Below are positions 46,829-53,844 of a stretch of DNA of 64,000 bases, piece by piece. The notes beneath the pieces were generated by a model. That model was not told where the DNA came from, made no database searches, and was given only the letters and a program-made list of their open reading frames with translations. This DNA is from Ruegeria pomeroyi (GTDB taxonomy: Bacteria; Pseudomonadota; Alphaproteobacteria; Rhodobacterales; Rhodobacteraceae), in assembly GCF_021405525.1 (NCBI RefSeq), contig NZ_JAGQAG010000001.1, forward strand, positions 1,302,001 through 1,366,000, in the 5' to 3' direction. Both the position numbers and the translations under genes were made by a program. How positions within the stretch are numbered: position 1 is the first letter of the stretch; every line of letters starts with the position of its first letter.

Positions 46829-48619
46829 TCAAAGCGGCGCGGTTGCGGCATCCAACCACATCCGCGTCTCGGCGCCCAGACGTGGACCGATCTTTGCCGC
46901 GACGTCGGCATGATAGGCGTTCAGCCAGTCGCGTTCCTCAACCGTCAGCATCTCCGCGACGATCAGCCGCCGATCAATCGGGACATAGGTCAGGGTGCGC
47001 CAATTCAGCATGGCGCGCTCTGCGTCGCCACCGGGCAGGGGGGCGGCCTCTTGCACCACCACCAGGTTCTCGATGCGGATGCCGAATGCGCCCTCGCGAT
47101 AATATCCCGGCTCGTTCGACAGGATCATGCCCGGTTCCAGCGGCACGTGGCTGACCCGTGCCAGCCGTTGCGGCCCCTCATGCACGCTCAGATACGCACC
47201 GACGCCGTGCCCGACCCCGTGGTTGAAATCCTGCCCCGCCAGCCATAGCGGCAGGCGCGCCACGCATTCGATATCGCGCCCCGCCAGCCCCACGGGCCAG
47301 CGCAGCATGGACATGGCGATCATGCCTTTCAGCACCCGCGTGAAACAGGCTTTCTCCTCGTCCCCCACGGTGCCGATGGCGATGGTGCGGGTGATGTCGG
47401 TGGTCCCGTCCAGATACTGGCCGCCGCTGTCCAGCACCAGAAGATGCCCGTCCTCCAGACGGCTGTCGGTCTCTTCGGTGACCCGGTAATGCATGATCGC
47501 ACCATTGGGCCCGGTGCCCGCGATGGTCTCAAAGCTGATATCCTGCAAGCCGTTGTCGCGGCGGCGGCAGGCCTCCAGCTGGCTGACCACCTGCGTTTCA
47601 GTCAGGCTGCCGGGCTCTTGCGCATCGAGCCAGGCCAGCAGGTCCACCATCGCGGCCCCGTCGCGCAGATGCGCCTCGGCGGCGCCTGCGATCTCGGCGG
47701 CGTTCTTGCGGGCCTTGGGCAGGGCGCAGGGATCCCCCCCCTTGGCCAGCCGGTGTCCCAGCCGATCTGCGACAATCTGCGGTACCGTGCTCAGGTCAAC
47801 CCGCACCGGACCTGCCAGTGCCTCTACCGCATCAAGAAACGCATCCGGTTCGTGCTGCGTCACCATCGGCCCCAGATGCTCCTCCAGACCGGTCAGCTTG
47901 GCCGCTGCCATGAACAGGTCGACCCGCCCGTCGTCATGCAGGATGGCAAAGCCATGTGCCACCGGGTTGCGCGGAATATCGGCGCCGCGAATGTTCAACA
48001 GCCACATGATCGAATCCGGCAGGGTGATCACAGCCGCCTTCTGACCCGCGCTGCGCAGGTCCTCGGCCAGTCGCGCCGCCTTGTCGGCGGCGGTTTCACC
48101 TGCGAATTCCAGCGGATGTGCCTTGACCGGTTCCATCGGTGGGCTGGGTTGATCCGGCCAGATCCGATCCACCAGATTGTCGCAGCGCACCAGTTCGATC
48201 CCGCTGCCCTTCAACTCGCTTACCGCGGTGCGGATCTGACCGGCTGCATGCAGCCAGGGATCGAACCCCACACGCCCGCCCTGCGGCAACTGCTTCTTGA
48301 GCCAGTCGGTCAGGCTTACATCGGGCCAGGGAACGGGTGTAAAGACATCAGCCACCTGCGCCTTGACCTGAGTACGATAGCGCCCGTCGATGAACACGCC
48401 CGCCGCATCCTTGAGCGCGGCGCAGAACCCGGCCGAGCCGGTAAAGCCGGTGAGCCAGGCCAGACGCTCGTCATGGGCGGCGACATATTCGCCCTGATGC
48501 GCATCCGCGCGCGGCACCAGGAACCCGCTCAGAGCCTCGGCCTCGATTTCGGCGCGCAGGCGCTCCAGCCGCGGTGGCCCCTGTTCCGGGCGGGCGGTCA
48601 CCTCGAAGCTCTGGTACAT
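46829..48619 (-). CDS. pepP: Xaa-Pro aminopeptidase, M24B family
   Basis: 596 residues. Cleaves N-terminal residues before proline. Two creatinase-like N-terminal domains (about 15-300) precede the pita-bread catalytic domain; the dimetal ligands are seen in LDSGGQYLDGTTDITRT (two Asp), FNHGVGHGVGAYLS (His), LSNEPGYY (Glu) and GIRIENLVVV (Glu). A C-terminal extension follows (residues about 535-596), as in the longer aminopeptidase P of eukaryotes and many bacteria. Strong GGAGG site at the ATG. Confidence 0.92.
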   Translation of the reverse strand: MYQSFEVTARPEQGPPRLERLRAEIEAEALSGFLVPRADAHQGEYVAAHDERLAWLTGFTGSAGFCAALKDAAGVFIDGRYRTQVKAQVADVFTPVPWPDVSLTDWLKKQLPQGGRVGFDPWLHAAGQIRTAVSELKGSGIELVRCDNLVDRIWPDQPSPPMEPVKAHPLEFAGETAADKAARLAEDLRSAGQKAAVITLPDSIMWLLNIRGADIPRNPVAHGFAILHDDGRVDLFMAAAKLTGLEEHLGPMVTQHEPDAFLDAVEALAGPVRVDLSTVPQIVADRLGHRLAKGGDPCALPKARKNAAEIAGAAEAHLRDGAAMVDLLAWLDAQEPGSLTETQVVSQLEACRRRDNGLQDISFETIAGTGPNGAIMHYRVTEETDSRLEDGHLLVLDSGGQYLDGTTDITRTIAIGTVGDEEKACFTRVLKGMIAMSMLRWPVGLAGRDIECVARLPLWLAGQDFNHGVGHGVGAYLSVHEGPQRLARVSHVPLEPGMILSNEPGYYREGAFGIRIENLVVVQEAAPLPGGDAERAMLNWRTLTYVPIDRRLIVAEMLTVEERDWLNAYHADVAAKIGPRLGAETRMWLDAATAPL

Positions 48620-48694
48620 GCTGCGCCTCCGTGTTGCTGTTGCCGCGAAAGGTGCGGCGTGGAACCGGAAATGTCCAGCACCTCCGCGATGCTC

Positions 48695-48722
48695 TTGTGA
48701 TGCGCGCGACTTGGCCTATCAT
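48695..48722 (+). promoter_or_regulatory. Possible promoter for a leaderless transcript
   Basis: TTGTGA (48695-48700) and TATCAT (48717-48722) are separated by 16 bp, a sigma-70-like pattern. The -10 box ends 6 bp before the ATG at 48729 and no Shine-Dalgarno is present, so the start of transcription would fall on or near the start codon. Confidence 0.35.
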
Positions 48723-48728
48723 GCCGGC

Positions 48729-49097
48729 ATGATCCGTTTGCCTGCCCTGATTGTCCTTGCCAGCCTTGCCCTGCCGCTTGCCGCGCAGGAGGAAAAGCGG
48801 CCAACACCCGAGATCGCCCGCCGCAATGCGGCCGATGCCATCGGCAAGAAGCTTGCAAACCCGGCAAACCCCGGACAGGCGCGGGTCTCGCGGCTTGTCA
48901 AGCAAGGCGATACGATCAAGCTTTGCGCCACGTCGGATGCCCGCAATGCCCGAGGTACCTATATCGGTCGCGACTATTGGGAGGTCACGCTCAGCGCGGA
49001 TGGCGAGACCGTATTGAGGACCCGGAACGTTACCGGCCTGTTGTCCCACTGTTATGGGGCCGATTACAAACCCTTCAGGGAAATGCTGGGCGAGTGA
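48729..49097 (+). CDS. Small exported protein of unknown function
   Basis: 122 residues with signal peptide MIRLPALIVLASLALPLAAQ. The mature part has two Cys (in KLCATSD and SHCYGAD) that could form a disulfide. No family recognised. It overlaps the 3' end of the hydrolase-regulator on the opposite strand by 23 bp. Start chosen at the only ATG giving a signal peptide. Confidence 0.65.
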   Translation: MIRLPALIVLASLALPLAAQEEKRPTPEIARRNAADAIGKKLANPANPGQARVSRLVKQGDTIKLCATSDARNARGTYIGRDYWEVTLSADGETVLRTRNVTGLLSHCYGADYKPFREMLGE

Positions 49098-50286
49098 CCC
49101 CTTGGGCGGGCGACCGTTCCCGTTCCCCCAGGAAACCCAACAAGGTCGATTGATACTCGTCCCAGACCGCGTTGCCCGGTATCGGGATGTGATTGGCGGT
49201 TTCCAGCACCATCAGTTCGGCCCCCGGAATGCCCGCCGCCAGTTTCTGTGCCTCGGACAGCGGATGCACATTGTCATGCCGGGCATGGATGATCAGGGTT
49301 GGGCATTGCACCTGGGGCAACAGCGGCAACAGCGAGACATCGTGGATCGCCGCCCGAACCTTCAGCATGGTCTCGCGCGACGAAGCATTGATCATGTTGC
49401 GCGCCATGTCGTGGATCGCCTCCAGCGGACCTTCGGGAAAATAGCTCAGCATCATCGCCGAGACGAAACTGATCTCCTGCGCGGCCCAGCCCTCGGTAAC
49501 GAGCGATTGCATCACGTCGGATTTCAGTTCGGGGTTTCGCCGCCTGCGCCCCTCGGCATAGCCGCCGACAATCGCCAGCCGGCTGACCCGCTCGGGGTAC
49601 TTCACCGCAAAGCGCAGCGCCGACAGAACCCCGCCGGATTCGCTGTAGAGCGCGAACCGTTCGAACCCCGCCGCATCCGCTGCCAGCTTCAGGTTCTCGG
49701 CCAGGGTATCGAACGAGAATTCCTCCAGCGCCCGGTCCGACCGCCCGAACCCGATCGGATCGAAGCGCAGCAGGCTGTGGTGTTCCGAGATTGCATCGAA
49801 CATCACCCGTTCCGAGGGCGTGTTCCACTCTGCCTCCAGATCGGTGGTGCTGTACCCGCCGCGCACCACCGGTGGGCCGGCTCCGATGACGGCATAGGCC
49901 AGAGACTTCCCCTCCGCCGTGCGTGTGTACCGGATGCGCTGCACCATGGGGGCAGGCCGGGGCAGGGCAGGCGGCGTGTCCGCCGTCACCTCGGCCACGA
50001 ATTTCAGCCCCCGCCGGGCGATGGTACGGATGATCCGTTGCGCCTTGCCATCGTCACCCACCGCCTTGCGAGCCGCCGCGATGCGGGCGCTGATGGCGCT
50101 TTCCGAGACGATGCGCCCGTTCCAGACCTCGGCCAGGATTTCATCTCGGGTCACCAGCCGACCGGGATTGCGCGCCAGCAGGTGCAACAGGTCGAATACC
50201 TGCGGCTCGACGGCAATCTCCTCGGCGTCCCGAACCAGCGTCAACTCGTCGGTATCCAGCAGGCAGTTGGCGAAAGCATAGCGCAT
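49075..50286 (-). CDS. OmpR/CadC-type DNA-binding domain fused to alpha/beta hydrolase, paralog 1
   Basis: 403 residues. Residues 1-100 are a winged helix of Trans_reg_C type (VEPQVFDLLHLLARNPGRLV, LAEVWNGRIVSESAISARIA, RRGLKFVAEV). Residues about 115-390 are an alpha/beta hydrolase: nucleophile Ser217 in YSESGG, acid in HARHDNVHPLSEA, His in ETANHIPI. No receiver or membrane segment is seen. It may sense or cut a small ester or lactone and act on DNA (inference). Stop-to-start distance to its upstream paralog is 6 bp. Confidence 0.85.
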   Translation of the reverse strand: MRYAFANCLLDTDELTLVRDAEEIAVEPQVFDLLHLLARNPGRLVTRDEILAEVWNGRIVSESAISARIAAARKAVGDDGKAQRIIRTIARRGLKFVAEVTADTPPALPRPAPMVQRIRYTRTAEGKSLAYAVIGAGPPVVRGGYSTTDLEAEWNTPSERVMFDAISEHHSLLRFDPIGFGRSDRALEEFSFDTLAENLKLAADAAGFERFALYSESGGVLSALRFAVKYPERVSRLAIVGGYAEGRRRRNPELKSDVMQSLVTEGWAAQEISFVSAMMLSYFPEGPLEAIHDMARNMINASSRETMLKVRAAIHDVSLLPLLPQVQCPTLIIHARHDNVHPLSEAQKLAAGIPGAELMVLETANHIPIPGNAVWDEYQSTLLGFLGERERSPAQGVTRPAFP

Positions 50287-50292
50287 GGCGGT

Positions 50293-51483
50293 CTAGCCCA
50301 CCCCCGCCGCAAGGAACCGGGTCAGCGTTTCCAGGTAGGTGTCATAGGCCGCATTGCCCTGCCAGGGAATGTGATTGGCGCATTCGAGCACCACCATTTC
50401 CGCATCCGCGATGCCAGCGGCCAGCTTGCGGGCCTCGGAGAGTGGATGAACCGCATCGTGGCGGGAATGCAGGATCAGCGTCGGACAAGTGATCCGTGAC
50501 AGGAAGTCCAGGCTCGAATGATGATTGATCAACTGGCGGTGGCGCAGGTCATGTTCCCTGGTCGCCGAATCCAGCATCATCCGGGCATAGGCCCGGACAG
50601 AGTCCAATGGCCCTTCGGGCTGATATGCCAGCAGGAAGGCTTCGAAAAAGGTGCTATCCGACCGCGACCGCGCGGTTTGCAACATGGCTTGCAAGGGTTC
50701 GGCCTCCTTGCCATCCGCATTGTCGCGCACTGCGCGCCCTTCGGCATAGGCACCCATCATGGCCAGACGGGTTACGCGTTCAGGGTGATGCGCTGCGATG
50801 TAAAGGCCCTGAGCACAACCACCGGATTGGGAATAGAGCGCGAACCGGTCGAGCCCCAGCGCGTCGGCAAGGCACAGGACATCTTCGGCCTGCTCATCAA
50901 TCGTGGACCGATCGGACCGGGGGTCGGATTGCCCCGAACCAATGGCGTCGAACCGGATCAGCGCGTTTTGGCGTGACAAGGCTTCGAAGCGGTGACGTTC
51001 GAAAGGCAGCCGCCACTCCGCTGCAATATCCGAACGTGTTTGGCCGAGCAGGATCACAGGAGGGCCGGCACCCGAAACCGAATAGGCCATGGAATGTCCG
51101 GTGGGCAGGATGATGTACCGAATGCGCGGCTCGTCTGTCCTGTCCCCGGTCGCCACGGGGGCGGTCTCGTCGGTTCGTTCCGTGACCTCGGTCACCATCT
51201 GCAACCCCCGCCGGGCGATTGCACGGATGACCCGCTGTGCCTTGCCGTCGTCGCCTACGGCTTTGCGCGCGGCGGCGATGCGGGCGCTGATGGCGCTTTC
51301 CGAGACGATGCGCCCGTTCCAGACCTCGGCCAGGATTTCGTCACGGGTGACCAGCTGCCCGGCATTGCGTGCCAGCAGGTGCAGCAGGTAGAATACCTGC
51401 GGCTCGACGGCAACCGGCGCATCGCCCCGCATCAAGACATGCCGCCCGGTATCCAGAACGCAATCGCGAAACACATAGCGCAT
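50293..51483 (-). CDS. OmpR/CadC-type DNA-binding domain fused to alpha/beta hydrolase, paralog 2
   Basis: 396 residues with the same order as the gene at 49075: winged helix 1-100, hydrolase about 118-390 with nucleophile Ser220 in YSQSGG, acid in HSRHDAVHPLSEA and His in ECANHIPW. Residues 48-84 of the two DNA-binding domains are identical, and 65 bp of the DNA there match exactly. The hydrolase pockets differ (for example SGGCAQ versus SGGVLS), so the ligands may differ. First gene of the pair, divergent from the 58-residue protein. Confidence 0.85.
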   Translation of the reverse strand: MRYVFRDCVLDTGRHVLMRGDAPVAVEPQVFYLLHLLARNAGQLVTRDEILAEVWNGRIVSESAISARIAAARKAVGDDGKAQRVIRAIARRGLQMVTEVTERTDETAPVATGDRTDEPRIRYIILPTGHSMAYSVSGAGPPVILLGQTRSDIAAEWRLPFERHRFEALSRQNALIRFDAIGSGQSDPRSDRSTIDEQAEDVLCLADALGLDRFALYSQSGGCAQGLYIAAHHPERVTRLAMMGAYAEGRAVRDNADGKEAEPLQAMLQTARSRSDSTFFEAFLLAYQPEGPLDSVRAYARMMLDSATREHDLRHRQLINHHSSLDFLSRITCPTLILHSRHDAVHPLSEARKLAAGIADAEMVVLECANHIPWQGNAAYDTYLETLTRFLAAGVG

Positions 51484-51622
51484 GGTGAATTAACACCCCG
51501 CTTTCGGTGTTTCGGCAAGCCCCAAGCAAAAAATAAGGATTCAGGCAGGGGTTTCCCAAGGCTGTCTGAAAGCGCCGCGAGCCCGACGCTGCCATGCTGG
51601 GAACACAACAAGGAGACCTGAC

Positions 51623-51799
51623 ATGATCCTGCATACCGATACCGCGCTTCTCAGCCACCGCCCCGTCCACCTGCAACTGCCGAGTGAGGAAGAAAGGATG
51701 GCCGCCCGATACGTGACACCGCGCCGGACTGCGAAAGCTTGGCGGGCGGGACGGATCGCCCGACTGTTCGCCTTTCGGCGTCTTGTCAGCCTGTCTTGA
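51623..51799 (+). CDS. Small basic protein, 58 residues
   Basis: ATG at 51623 has AAGGAG 7 bp upstream, an ideal ribosome site, and the frame stops at TGA 51797-51799. The N-terminal half is polar and His-containing (HTD, SHRPVHLQ), the C-terminal half strongly basic with an amphipathic look (RRTAKAWRAGRIARLFAFRR). No known family recognised. It is transcribed away from the regulator pair at 50293-51483, across a 139-bp region that holds AACACC (51492-51497) and GGTGTT (51506-51511) as inverted arms. Regulation by those regulators is inference. Confidence 0.62.
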   Translation: MILHTDTALLSHRPVHLQLPSEEERMAARYVTPRRTAKAWRAGRIARLFAFRRLVSLS

Positions 51800-51832
51800 C
51801 GGGCTGAGGGGGGAGACGGACCCTGTGCTTCT

Positions 51833-51880
51833 TTCTGGTCGGAAATACTCCCGCCGGAGGCGCCCGAAAGCAAGGCAGGC
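51833..51880. repeat. Dispersed GC-rich intergenic repeat, partial copy 3
   Basis: CTTCTTTCTGGTCGGAAATACTCC and GGAGGCGCCCG repeat the second half of the 1908-2056 element with one change in the first part (GGT[T/C]GGAAATACTCC). It sits between the convergent small protein and cobT. No other gene is seen in 51800-51894. Confidence 0.65.
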
Positions 51881-51894
51881 GCCACCGATCCGGG

Positions 51895-53772
51895 TCAGCT
51901 GGCGCGTTTCATGCCCATCACCCGCGCGCGCGCGCGCGGGTCGCTGTCAAAGAGCGCCGCCAGCTGCTCGGTCATGGCACCGGCCAGCTGCTCGACATCG
52001 GTGATCGTCACCGCGCGCTGGTAATAGCGGGTCACGTCATGGCCGATACCGATGGCCAGCAGTTCGACCTGCTTGCGCTTTTCCACCATGGCGATCACGT
52101 CGCGCAGGTGTTTTTCCAGGTAATTCGCCGGGTTCACACTCAGGGTGGAATCGTCCACCGGCGCCCCGTCCGAGATCACCATCAGGATCTTGCGCTGCTC
52201 GCGGCGGCCCAGCATCCGGCGATGCGCCCATTCCAGCGCCTCGCCGTCGATGTTTTCCTTCAAGAGGCCCTCTTTCATCATCAGGCCCAGGTTCTGCCGT
52301 GTGCGCCGCATCGGCGCGTCGGCGGCCTTGTAGATGATGTGGCGCAGGTCATTGAGGCGACCGGGCTGCTGCGGGCGGCCTTCGTTCAGCCAGGCCTCGC
52401 GCGCCAGCCCGCCCTTCCAGGCGCGGGTGGTAAAGCCCAGGATCTCGACCTTGACGTTGCAGCGTTCCAGCGTGCGCGCCAGCACATCGGCGCAGATCGC
52501 CGCGATCGAGATCGGGCGTCCCCGCATCGAGCCCGAGTTATCCAAGAGCAGCGTCACCACCGTATCACGGAACTCGGTATCCTTCTCCACCTTGAACGAC
52601 AGCGGCGTGGTCGGGTTGGCCACGACCCGCGCCAGTCGGCCGGCATCCAGAATGCCCTCTTCGCGGTCAAATTCCCAGCTGCGGTTCTGCTGCGCCTGAA
52701 GGCGGCGTTGCAGCTTGTTGGCAAGGCGCGACACCGCGCCTTTCAGCGGCTCCAGCTGCTGGTCGAGATAGGCGCGCAGCCGCTCCAGCTCGGCCGGTTC
52801 GGCCAGCTCTTCGGCGGCGATCTCCTCGTCATGGCTATCCAGATAGACCTTGTAATTCGGATCGGCCTCGGATGCGGGCGGCGGCGGGGGCGGCTCCAGC
52901 GGCGCCTCGCCATCGGGCATCTCGGTCTCTTCGGCCAGCTCCTCGTCGGCCAGCTCGTCCATCGAGACCTGGGCCTGGCTTTCGTCCTGCTGCTGTTCCT
53001 GGCTCTGCTCGGGATCGGCGTCGGCGTCCTGATCGTCTTGGTCGTCCTGGCCGGTGCTGTCGGGATCGGGCTGCTCGTCGGCGTCGTCCTCGGCCTGATC
53101 CTCCTGATCCTCGTCCATTTCGTCCGGGTCGTCGCCCAGCTGGTCGCCATAGCCGAGGTCCTTGATCACCTGGCGGGCGAATTTGGCGAATTCGGCCTGA
53201 TCTGAGAGGATATCGCTCAGGTTTTCCAGCGTGCCGCCGGCCTGTTCCTCGATAAAGCCGCGCCAGAGGTTCATCACATTGGCCGCTGCCGCTGGCAGGT
53301 CGCGCCCGGTGGCCAGATGCCGCACCAGATAGCCCGCCGCCACCGGCAGCGGTGCCTCGGAAGGCTGCTTGCACTGGTCATAGCCGCGCCGCAGCGCCTC
53401 ATGGGTGATCTTGACGTCGATGTTGGACGCGGTGCCGGGCATGTCGCGGGCGCCCATCGCCTCGCAACGGGCGGTCTCCATCGCCTCGTAAAGATCGCGC
53501 GCCATGTCACCCGGCGGGGCATAGCGGCTGTGGGTCGCATCGTCGTGATAGCGGCGATAGAGCGCCAGCGCATCCGCCGTGCCGCGCGCCAGCAACACCT
53601 CGTCGCGGGTCATCCGGCGGCTGACCTGGGGCAGGCGCATGGCGTCGCCGCTGACGCCCGAGGGGTCGACCGTATAGCTGACCGACAGATCCGGGTCGTC
53701 GGCCATCACCTTGGTCGCCTCGGCCAGCGCCTTCTTGAACGGATCGGCGGGATTGTCGGTCGGTTTGCTCAT
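51895..53772 (-). CDS. cobT: Cobaltochelatase subunit CobT
   Basis: 625 residues from ATG at 53772 (GTG or ATG 18 bp upstream less likely). CobT forms the CobST AAA+ motor with CobS for cobalt insertion by CobN. N-terminal folded region to about 190, a long acidic linker (about 195-305, rich in D, E and Q), a PPPPPP run, then a von Willebrand A domain with the MIDAS motif DNSGSM and a second ligand in [10 protein letters not shown]. Length and domains normal. cobS is 72 bp upstream. Confidence 0.95.
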
Positions 53773-53844
53773 GTCACTTCGGTCCTGCAAACAGGCGGTC
53801 GCGTCCCATGGTGGGCCGCAAGGCGGATATGGCGGCCGCCCGGA

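Follow-up and report, generated by a model that had tools for sequence, protein, structure and literature searches.

Two adjacent genes on the reverse strand of the window (the 64,000-nucleotide stretch of Ruegeria pomeroyi DNA that was analysed) appear to belong to a bacterial switch of a kind not yet described: in the two products, the sensing halves diverge and the DNA-binding halves stay alike. The pair, at 49075–51483, probably constitutes one operon. The reading that we favour, and consider probable, is that each product is a one-component regulator that controls its own expression and senses ligands through a hydrolase-fold receptor, the gene having been duplicated to broaden the range of ligands acting at one operator. 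The N-terminal winged helix, of the OmpR/PhoB type, would bind head-to-tail to a direct-repeat element at 51525–51574, and the C-terminal alpha/beta-hydrolase domain would serve as a small-molecule receptor, with or without turnover of the ligand. Ligand binding would alter the occupancy of the element, which in turn would control the regulators themselves and a divergent gene of 58 amino acids. Duplication would have provided two receptors with differing pockets, while gene conversion in the helix-turn-helix core would hold both copies to the same operator; the copies could act alone, in competition or, conceivably, as a mixed dimer. The principal features are as follows.

50293–51483, reverse strand: first regulator, 396 amino acids, with a winged helix (residues 1–97) and an alpha/beta-hydrolase domain (approximately residues 118–392), from the open reading frame, Pfam and AlphaFold2
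49075–50286, reverse strand: second regulator, 403 amino acids, with the architecture of the first, from the same three sources
51484–51622, no strand assigned: intergenic region of 139 bp shared by the regulators and the divergent small gene
51525–51574, reverse strand: operator-like element with four boxes phased 12/11/11 bp, a candidate site located with a 50-bp matrix
51623–51799, forward strand: divergent small gene, 58 amino acids, type A (MILHTDTALLSH...), with ATG and a Shine-Dalgarno sequence; candidate target

An earlier, sequence-only reading of this DNA had described adjacent genes that each join a winged helix to an alpha/beta hydrolase, and the two open reading frames were found where it had placed them, each with both Pfam domains. 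The second regulator lies downstream of the first after a gap of 6 bp. The Trans_reg_C domain is matched at 5.5e-12 in the first regulator (46.0 bits) and at 1.3e-14 in the second (54.5 bits; cut-off 26.2), and Abhydrolase_1 at 2.6e-18 and 7.7e-16, respectively; the remainder of each protein outside the winged helix consists of hydrolase matches. No receiver domain of the kind present in two-component response regulators was matched in either protein up to an E-value of 0.01. Over 391 aligned positions the regulators share 54% identity, with approximately 47% identity between the hydrolase halves (protein level, windows summed). At the nucleotide level the copies are 90% identical over codons 31–60 and 86% identical over codons 61–90, and this likeness is not attributable to chance since the other 30-codon windows are far less alike (44–68%). 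Residues 48–84 had been noted as identical in the two proteins; the full identical block in fact covers residues 44–84.

The part of the winged helix with a history common to the copies corresponds to helices 1–3, including the recognition helix.

51232–51399, reverse strand: codons 29–84 of the first regulator
50035–50202, reverse strand: codons 29–84 of the second regulator, the matching tract

Within each of four genomes, the nucleotide identity between copies amounts to 88–100% over codons 29–70, 67–93% over codons 71–98 and 36–79% elsewhere; orthologues in those genomes are mostly 70–100% identical throughout. In an AU test of codons 29–84, a tract that was picked after inspection of these identity figures, the orthologue tree was rejected (p 0.0026), and for codons 1–28 and the hydrolase half two paralogue trees were rejected. 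When all of the winged helix (codons 1–97) is put into a tree, the second copies still cluster, with a support of 0.999, as expected of a mosaic. Runs of shared silent sites exceed permutations in three genomes (p 0.025 in that of the window, 0.0024 and 0.0041 in the others), and the same test fails in the fourth (L010, p 0.957). Among six copies from Thetidibacter and Maliponia, the winged-helix DNA is 79–91% identical and the hydrolase DNA 52–75%. One fully supported pair of hydrolase halves has a member in each genus, which places the divergence of the Maliponia copies before the split of the genera; their winged helices are 91% identical despite this earlier divergence. The tree that joins the Maliponia winged helices does so with weak support (0.64–0.65), and a second hydrolase pair between the genera, seen in one tree, is not upheld in another. 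The overall pattern suggests gene conversion limited to helices 1–3, with hydrolase halves that keep separate ancestries. Such conversion may imply selection for one DNA specificity, or the stretch may merely be similar enough to recombine.

The predicted element falls inside 51484–51622, which the sequence-only reading had singled out. Four CTTG-like boxes in a 12/11/11 bp phase were found in 83 of 91 family promoters, all 83 of which beat the best of 455 shuffles with a 50-bp matrix trained on these same 91 promoters. This set leaves aside 8 downstream tandem copies, before all of which the element is absent (scores −11 to −19), and it contains one element-less promoter (L101) with 151 bp of upstream sequence only. 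The 50-bp site starts 57–118 bp upstream of the regulator start codon. An element model was built from 48 of the 83 sites, and their consensus is CGCTTGAAGAnnnnCTTGAGAAAnCCTTGnGATTTCCTTGAGATT. Since these promoters also served to train the matrix, more weight attaches to the spacing of CTTG pairs, which requires no training: 36 pairs are spaced at 11 bp, 26 at 12 bp, 16 at 22 bp, 34 at 23 bp and 11 at 24 bp, with at most 9 pairs at each other spacing up to 30 bp. Mononucleotide shuffles give an expectation of 0.2–0.4 CTTG pairs, and the reverse strand contains one pair in total.

The first and third boxes of the window's own element are degenerate (CTTTCAG and CCTGCCT), and its score of 24.5 is among the weaker ones (best 38.1). 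Treated as a plain pattern, the site is equalled or bettered at two other genomic locations, and the count in the window (1, versus 1.33 expected) is not above chance. A search of the window's genome for additional targets returned three pattern matches, all with 3 mismatches and one of them the known site, and gave no support for a wider regulon. Across 41 genomes, 12 match the element model at an E-value of 0.01. The regulator's own promoter is matched in eight of the nine genomes holding a full-length regulator (G061 being missed), and G004, which is without the pair, gave no match. Matches in genomes without a full-length regulator were seen in G014 (strong, E-value 1.7e-6), G015, G073 and G076, and second, weaker matches in G017 and G024. 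The strong element of G014 (L159) is situated between an excinuclease-like open reading frame, by our own reading, and a small one; the weaker second element of G024 (L166) is accompanied by a truncated winged-helix open reading frame and a type A match, and looks like a decayed module. The proposal that both copies serve the same DNA site is one that we retain: the helix-turn-helix cores share a history within genomes and the element occurs before the first gene only, from which we infer a single site.

A small open reading frame on the divergent strand accompanies 75 of the 91 promoters (30 of type A and 45 of type B, the latter with a DGSID motif), and none of the 91 has one on the opposite strand. 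The element is present in all 75 of these promoters, and the 8 promoters without it are all without the small gene; the small-gene models were grown from the same loci. The median distance of the small-gene start from the regulator is 141 bp for 29 type A and 151 bp for 45 type B genes, start codons having been assigned to 29 of the 30 type A matches; the script used for this gives preference to ATG accompanied by a Shine-Dalgarno sequence. Along the hydrolase tree the type of small gene switches once. Among 13 regulators outside the training set, two are downstream tandem copies with neither element nor small gene; ten of the other 11 have the element, ten the small gene and nine both. Conservation of the small gene is modest (154/109/228 differences by codon position, 15 overlapping pairs), and searches of Pfam and NCBIfam with six of the small proteins gave nothing near cut-off.

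All three annotated plasmid records that were scored have a hypothetical protein at the place of the small gene (a fourth, unannotated record from Gemmatirosa was left out of promoter scoring). Of the three, the first repeats a locus already used in training, another is a type B protein not seen before and the last is of neither type, on a plasmid with a borderline element (score 9.1). In a search for type B, 11 of 121 genomes matched at an E-value of 0.001. The seven matches below 1e-15 all adjoin a regulator, six of them having been in the search alignment, and three of the four weak matches, viewed with short flanks, gave no full-length fusion beside them. The weak match at L176 is near a hydrolase-domain open reading frame without a winged helix.

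Two simpler accounts of the DNA-binding side were weighed. Codons 29–84 could owe their likeness to strong purifying selection with no gene conversion involved, and mean entropy is indeed lower in the helix-turn-helix core than in the hydrolase half (1.07 versus 1.97), a difference that is partly inflated since the contig scan fetched loci by the peptide at residues 26–34. We judge this account highly improbable: synonymous sites are alike too, with a pS between paralogues of 0.25–0.33 for residues 27–97 versus 0.54–0.62 for the hydrolase half (two genomes), and the trees rejected inside the tract are those of orthologues, whereas outside it they are those of paralogues. For the element, the corresponding account is that it represents a core promoter or a leader RNA unrelated to the winged helix, its linkage to the regulator being that of an ordinary conserved neighbourhood. 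A site 57–118 bp before the start codon is where promoters may lie, and the element could partly be core promoter. As a full explanation this is nevertheless improbable, given direct repeats that are helically phased and always on the same strand, the absence of the small gene wherever the element is absent, and a search of Rfam that placed no family on the element of the window; the one match in 51300–52000 was sub-threshold, lay outside the element and was taken as chance.

In the hydrolase domains, the putative catalytic residues are as follows.

50824–50826, reverse strand: S220, putative nucleophile of the first regulator
50455–50457, reverse strand: D343 of the first regulator
50371–50373, reverse strand: H371 of the first regulator
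49636–49638, reverse strand: S217, putative nucleophile of the second regulator
49273–49275, reverse strand: D338 of the second regulator
49189–49191, reverse strand: H366 of the second regulator

The serines S217 and S220, with an Asp and a His in each protein, had been put forward as potentially catalytic, and all of them occupy canonical places as judged by sequence and by the order of structural elements. AlphaFold2 models (mean pLDDT 86.0 for the first regulator and 90.2 for the second) agree with this assignment, as in both the predicted positions of Ser, Asp and His follow the nucleophile, acid and base strands of the fold, a correspondence of order and not of distances. In the second model, the hydrolase half resembles esterases, haloperoxidases, D14, KAI2-like proteins and RsbQ (Z-scores of 27.4–30.7 among the 50 matches listed), and Foldseek returned the same kinds of protein for the model of the first regulator. 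Among the NCBIfam families listed (25 of 54 and 25 of 48 for the two regulators), all were below their cut-offs.

Across the family, 115 full-length proteins reduce to 99 distinct ones. The full Ser-Asp-His set is present in 77 of these, both window copies among them, while the nucleophilic serine is absent in 18 (one having Thr) and Asp or His deviates in 4. In Thetidibacter halocola (L030, 2372–7176), the triad Asp is replaced by Asn in two of four tandem fusion regulators. Loss of the serine maps onto the tree as three changes, of which two are forced by well-supported branches. Twelve of the 18 serine-less members, comprising ten from Ruegeria together with L059 and L064, retain both the repeat element and the small gene; both were absent from the five of a Nioella-like group, for one of which little upstream sequence was available. 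The dN/dS of the hydrolase domain is 0.04–0.13 in four Ruegeria pairs, a fifth (L034/L045) being saturated, and amounts to 0.11 for L059/L064 and 0.31 for L072/L084. With the nucleophile lost in at least two clades while the domain is under purifying selection in the pairs tested, catalysis would be dispensable for the family as a whole; the hydrolase fold is kept without its nucleophile in natural family members. Hydrolysis of the signal, as suggested by the sequence-only reading, is thus not supported as a general mechanism. The window's own copies have complete triads by sequence, and for them hydrolysis is possible. Between the copies the hydrolase half has a dN of approximately 0.5 (two genomes), versus 0.01–0.07 in four orthologue pairs, and it is plausible that the two would respond to two related ligands.

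If the domains were working esterases or lactonases, with turnover of the signal as the switch itself, then the complete Ser-Asp-His set in most distinct members, the window pair included, and the esterases, haloperoxidases and lactonase that are the best matches among solved structures would be readily explained. We consider this rather unlikely, given a serine lost with two or three origins and the dN/dS of the domain in the pairs tested, an argument that bears on the family and not necessarily on the window's copies. Loss of catalytic residues with retention of the fold would also suit a mere scaffold for dimerisation or stability that senses nothing. Such a role is very improbable, as the tandem copies diverge in precisely the hydrolase half while the DNA-binding core stays alike, and the whole triad is kept in 77 of 99 members. 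The fusion of the same hydrolase module to class III cyclases, at two other places in this genome, fits a sensory module.

The pair occupies a slot between two genes identified by Pfam.

51895–53790, reverse strand: cobT, one flank of the slot
46829–48619, reverse strand: M24 aminopeptidase P (pepP), the other flank

Among relatives the slot holds 0 to 4 regulator copies. Four of five genomes of the genus have the pair, and G004 has cobT and pepP with neither the pair nor the small gene between them. Thetidibacter halocola has four copies in the slot, and Maliponia aquimaris and G216 have two each. In G216 the upstream copy of the pair (L148, 4877–6038) is broken by a frame change between winged helix and hydrolase, which could reflect decay or a sequencing error. 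At least two copies are found beside pepP at a contig end in G185, a single copy adjoins pepP in L013, where only the pepP side was seen, and G009 has a slot without copies and a regulator located elsewhere. The window also contains a forward-strand open reading frame of 159 amino acids (48618–49097) that overlaps the end of the second regulator; it is present in all five members of the genus, G004 included, and gave no Pfam or NCBIfam match up to an E-value of 0.01.

In a survey of 394 genomes of Rhodobacteraceae, 85 match at 1e-70. The match spans nearly the whole fusion in 50 of the 394 (47 above 440 bits and three at 261–276 bits, winged helix unchecked), and most of the other matching genomes have the hydrolase half alone. 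Copy numbers from this survey are lower bounds, as 4 candidates per genome were scored. A contig scan returned at least 558 relatives, and the loci analysed here are the best 80 of these, a selection biased towards the query; judging by record titles, they come mostly from Rhodobacterales and Hyphomicrobiales. The regulator was found in 4 of 72,556 plasmid records, one from Gemmatimonadota, and searching viral contigs with patterns from the first regulator yielded nothing. We tentatively suggest, with slightly less than even confidence, that the slot between cobT and pepP acts as a receptor array that can expand, with 0 to 4 copies. The receptors would be duplicated and diversified there, with DNA-binding cores homogenised by ectopic gene conversion, and a variety of signals would thereby act through a single autoregulated operator and a single divergent gene, whose small protein represents a family not described before.

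A large alphaproteobacterial family fuses the hydrolase fold to its own DNA-binding domain. With this fusion, with serine-less members and with a predicted operator and target beside the gene, whether the fold acts as a receptor or as an enzyme can be tested directly in a bacterium. In addition, the arrays suggest that domain-limited gene conversion could fix DNA specificity while sensors diverge. In the literature searched (top results, with most subscription journals missing), no description of the family's role was found, at the RNA level or otherwise.

The Trans_reg_C domain is common to these proteins and to the OmpR/PhoB regulators, among them PhoB, PhoP and the one-component CadC, but here no receiver domain was found and an alpha/beta hydrolase follows the winged helix. 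PhoP is described as binding 7-bp direct repeats with 4-bp spacers (PMC4832192). The predicted site has the same layout of repeat and spacer, with up to four boxes.

Receptors with a hydrolase fold are known chiefly from the perception of plant hormones. D14, DAD2, KAI2-like proteins and RsbQ share the fold as modelled for the second regulator (Z-scores of 27.4 to 28.3), slightly outranked by esterases and haloperoxidases; in contrast to D14, KAI2, GID1 and RsbQ, the predicted receptor is here fused to its own DNA-binding domain. GID1 is presented in PMC3531792 as a receptor whose active-site histidine has been lost. The serine-less members resemble it, GID1 having lost the histidine rather than the serine. 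LipJ-type fusions of a hydrolase to a class III cyclase, of which the window's genome contains two (L003, 1486–2883, and L004, 973–2358), have a homologous hydrolase domain, but their output is a nucleotide cyclase and not a winged helix. We know of no tandem array of BzdR, a regulator that offers a further parallel. BzdR joins a DNA-binding domain to a shikimate-kinase-like effector domain that has lost its enzyme activity, as described in PMC3602430. It likewise employs an enzyme fold as the effector-binding domain, though the enzyme fold is a different one.
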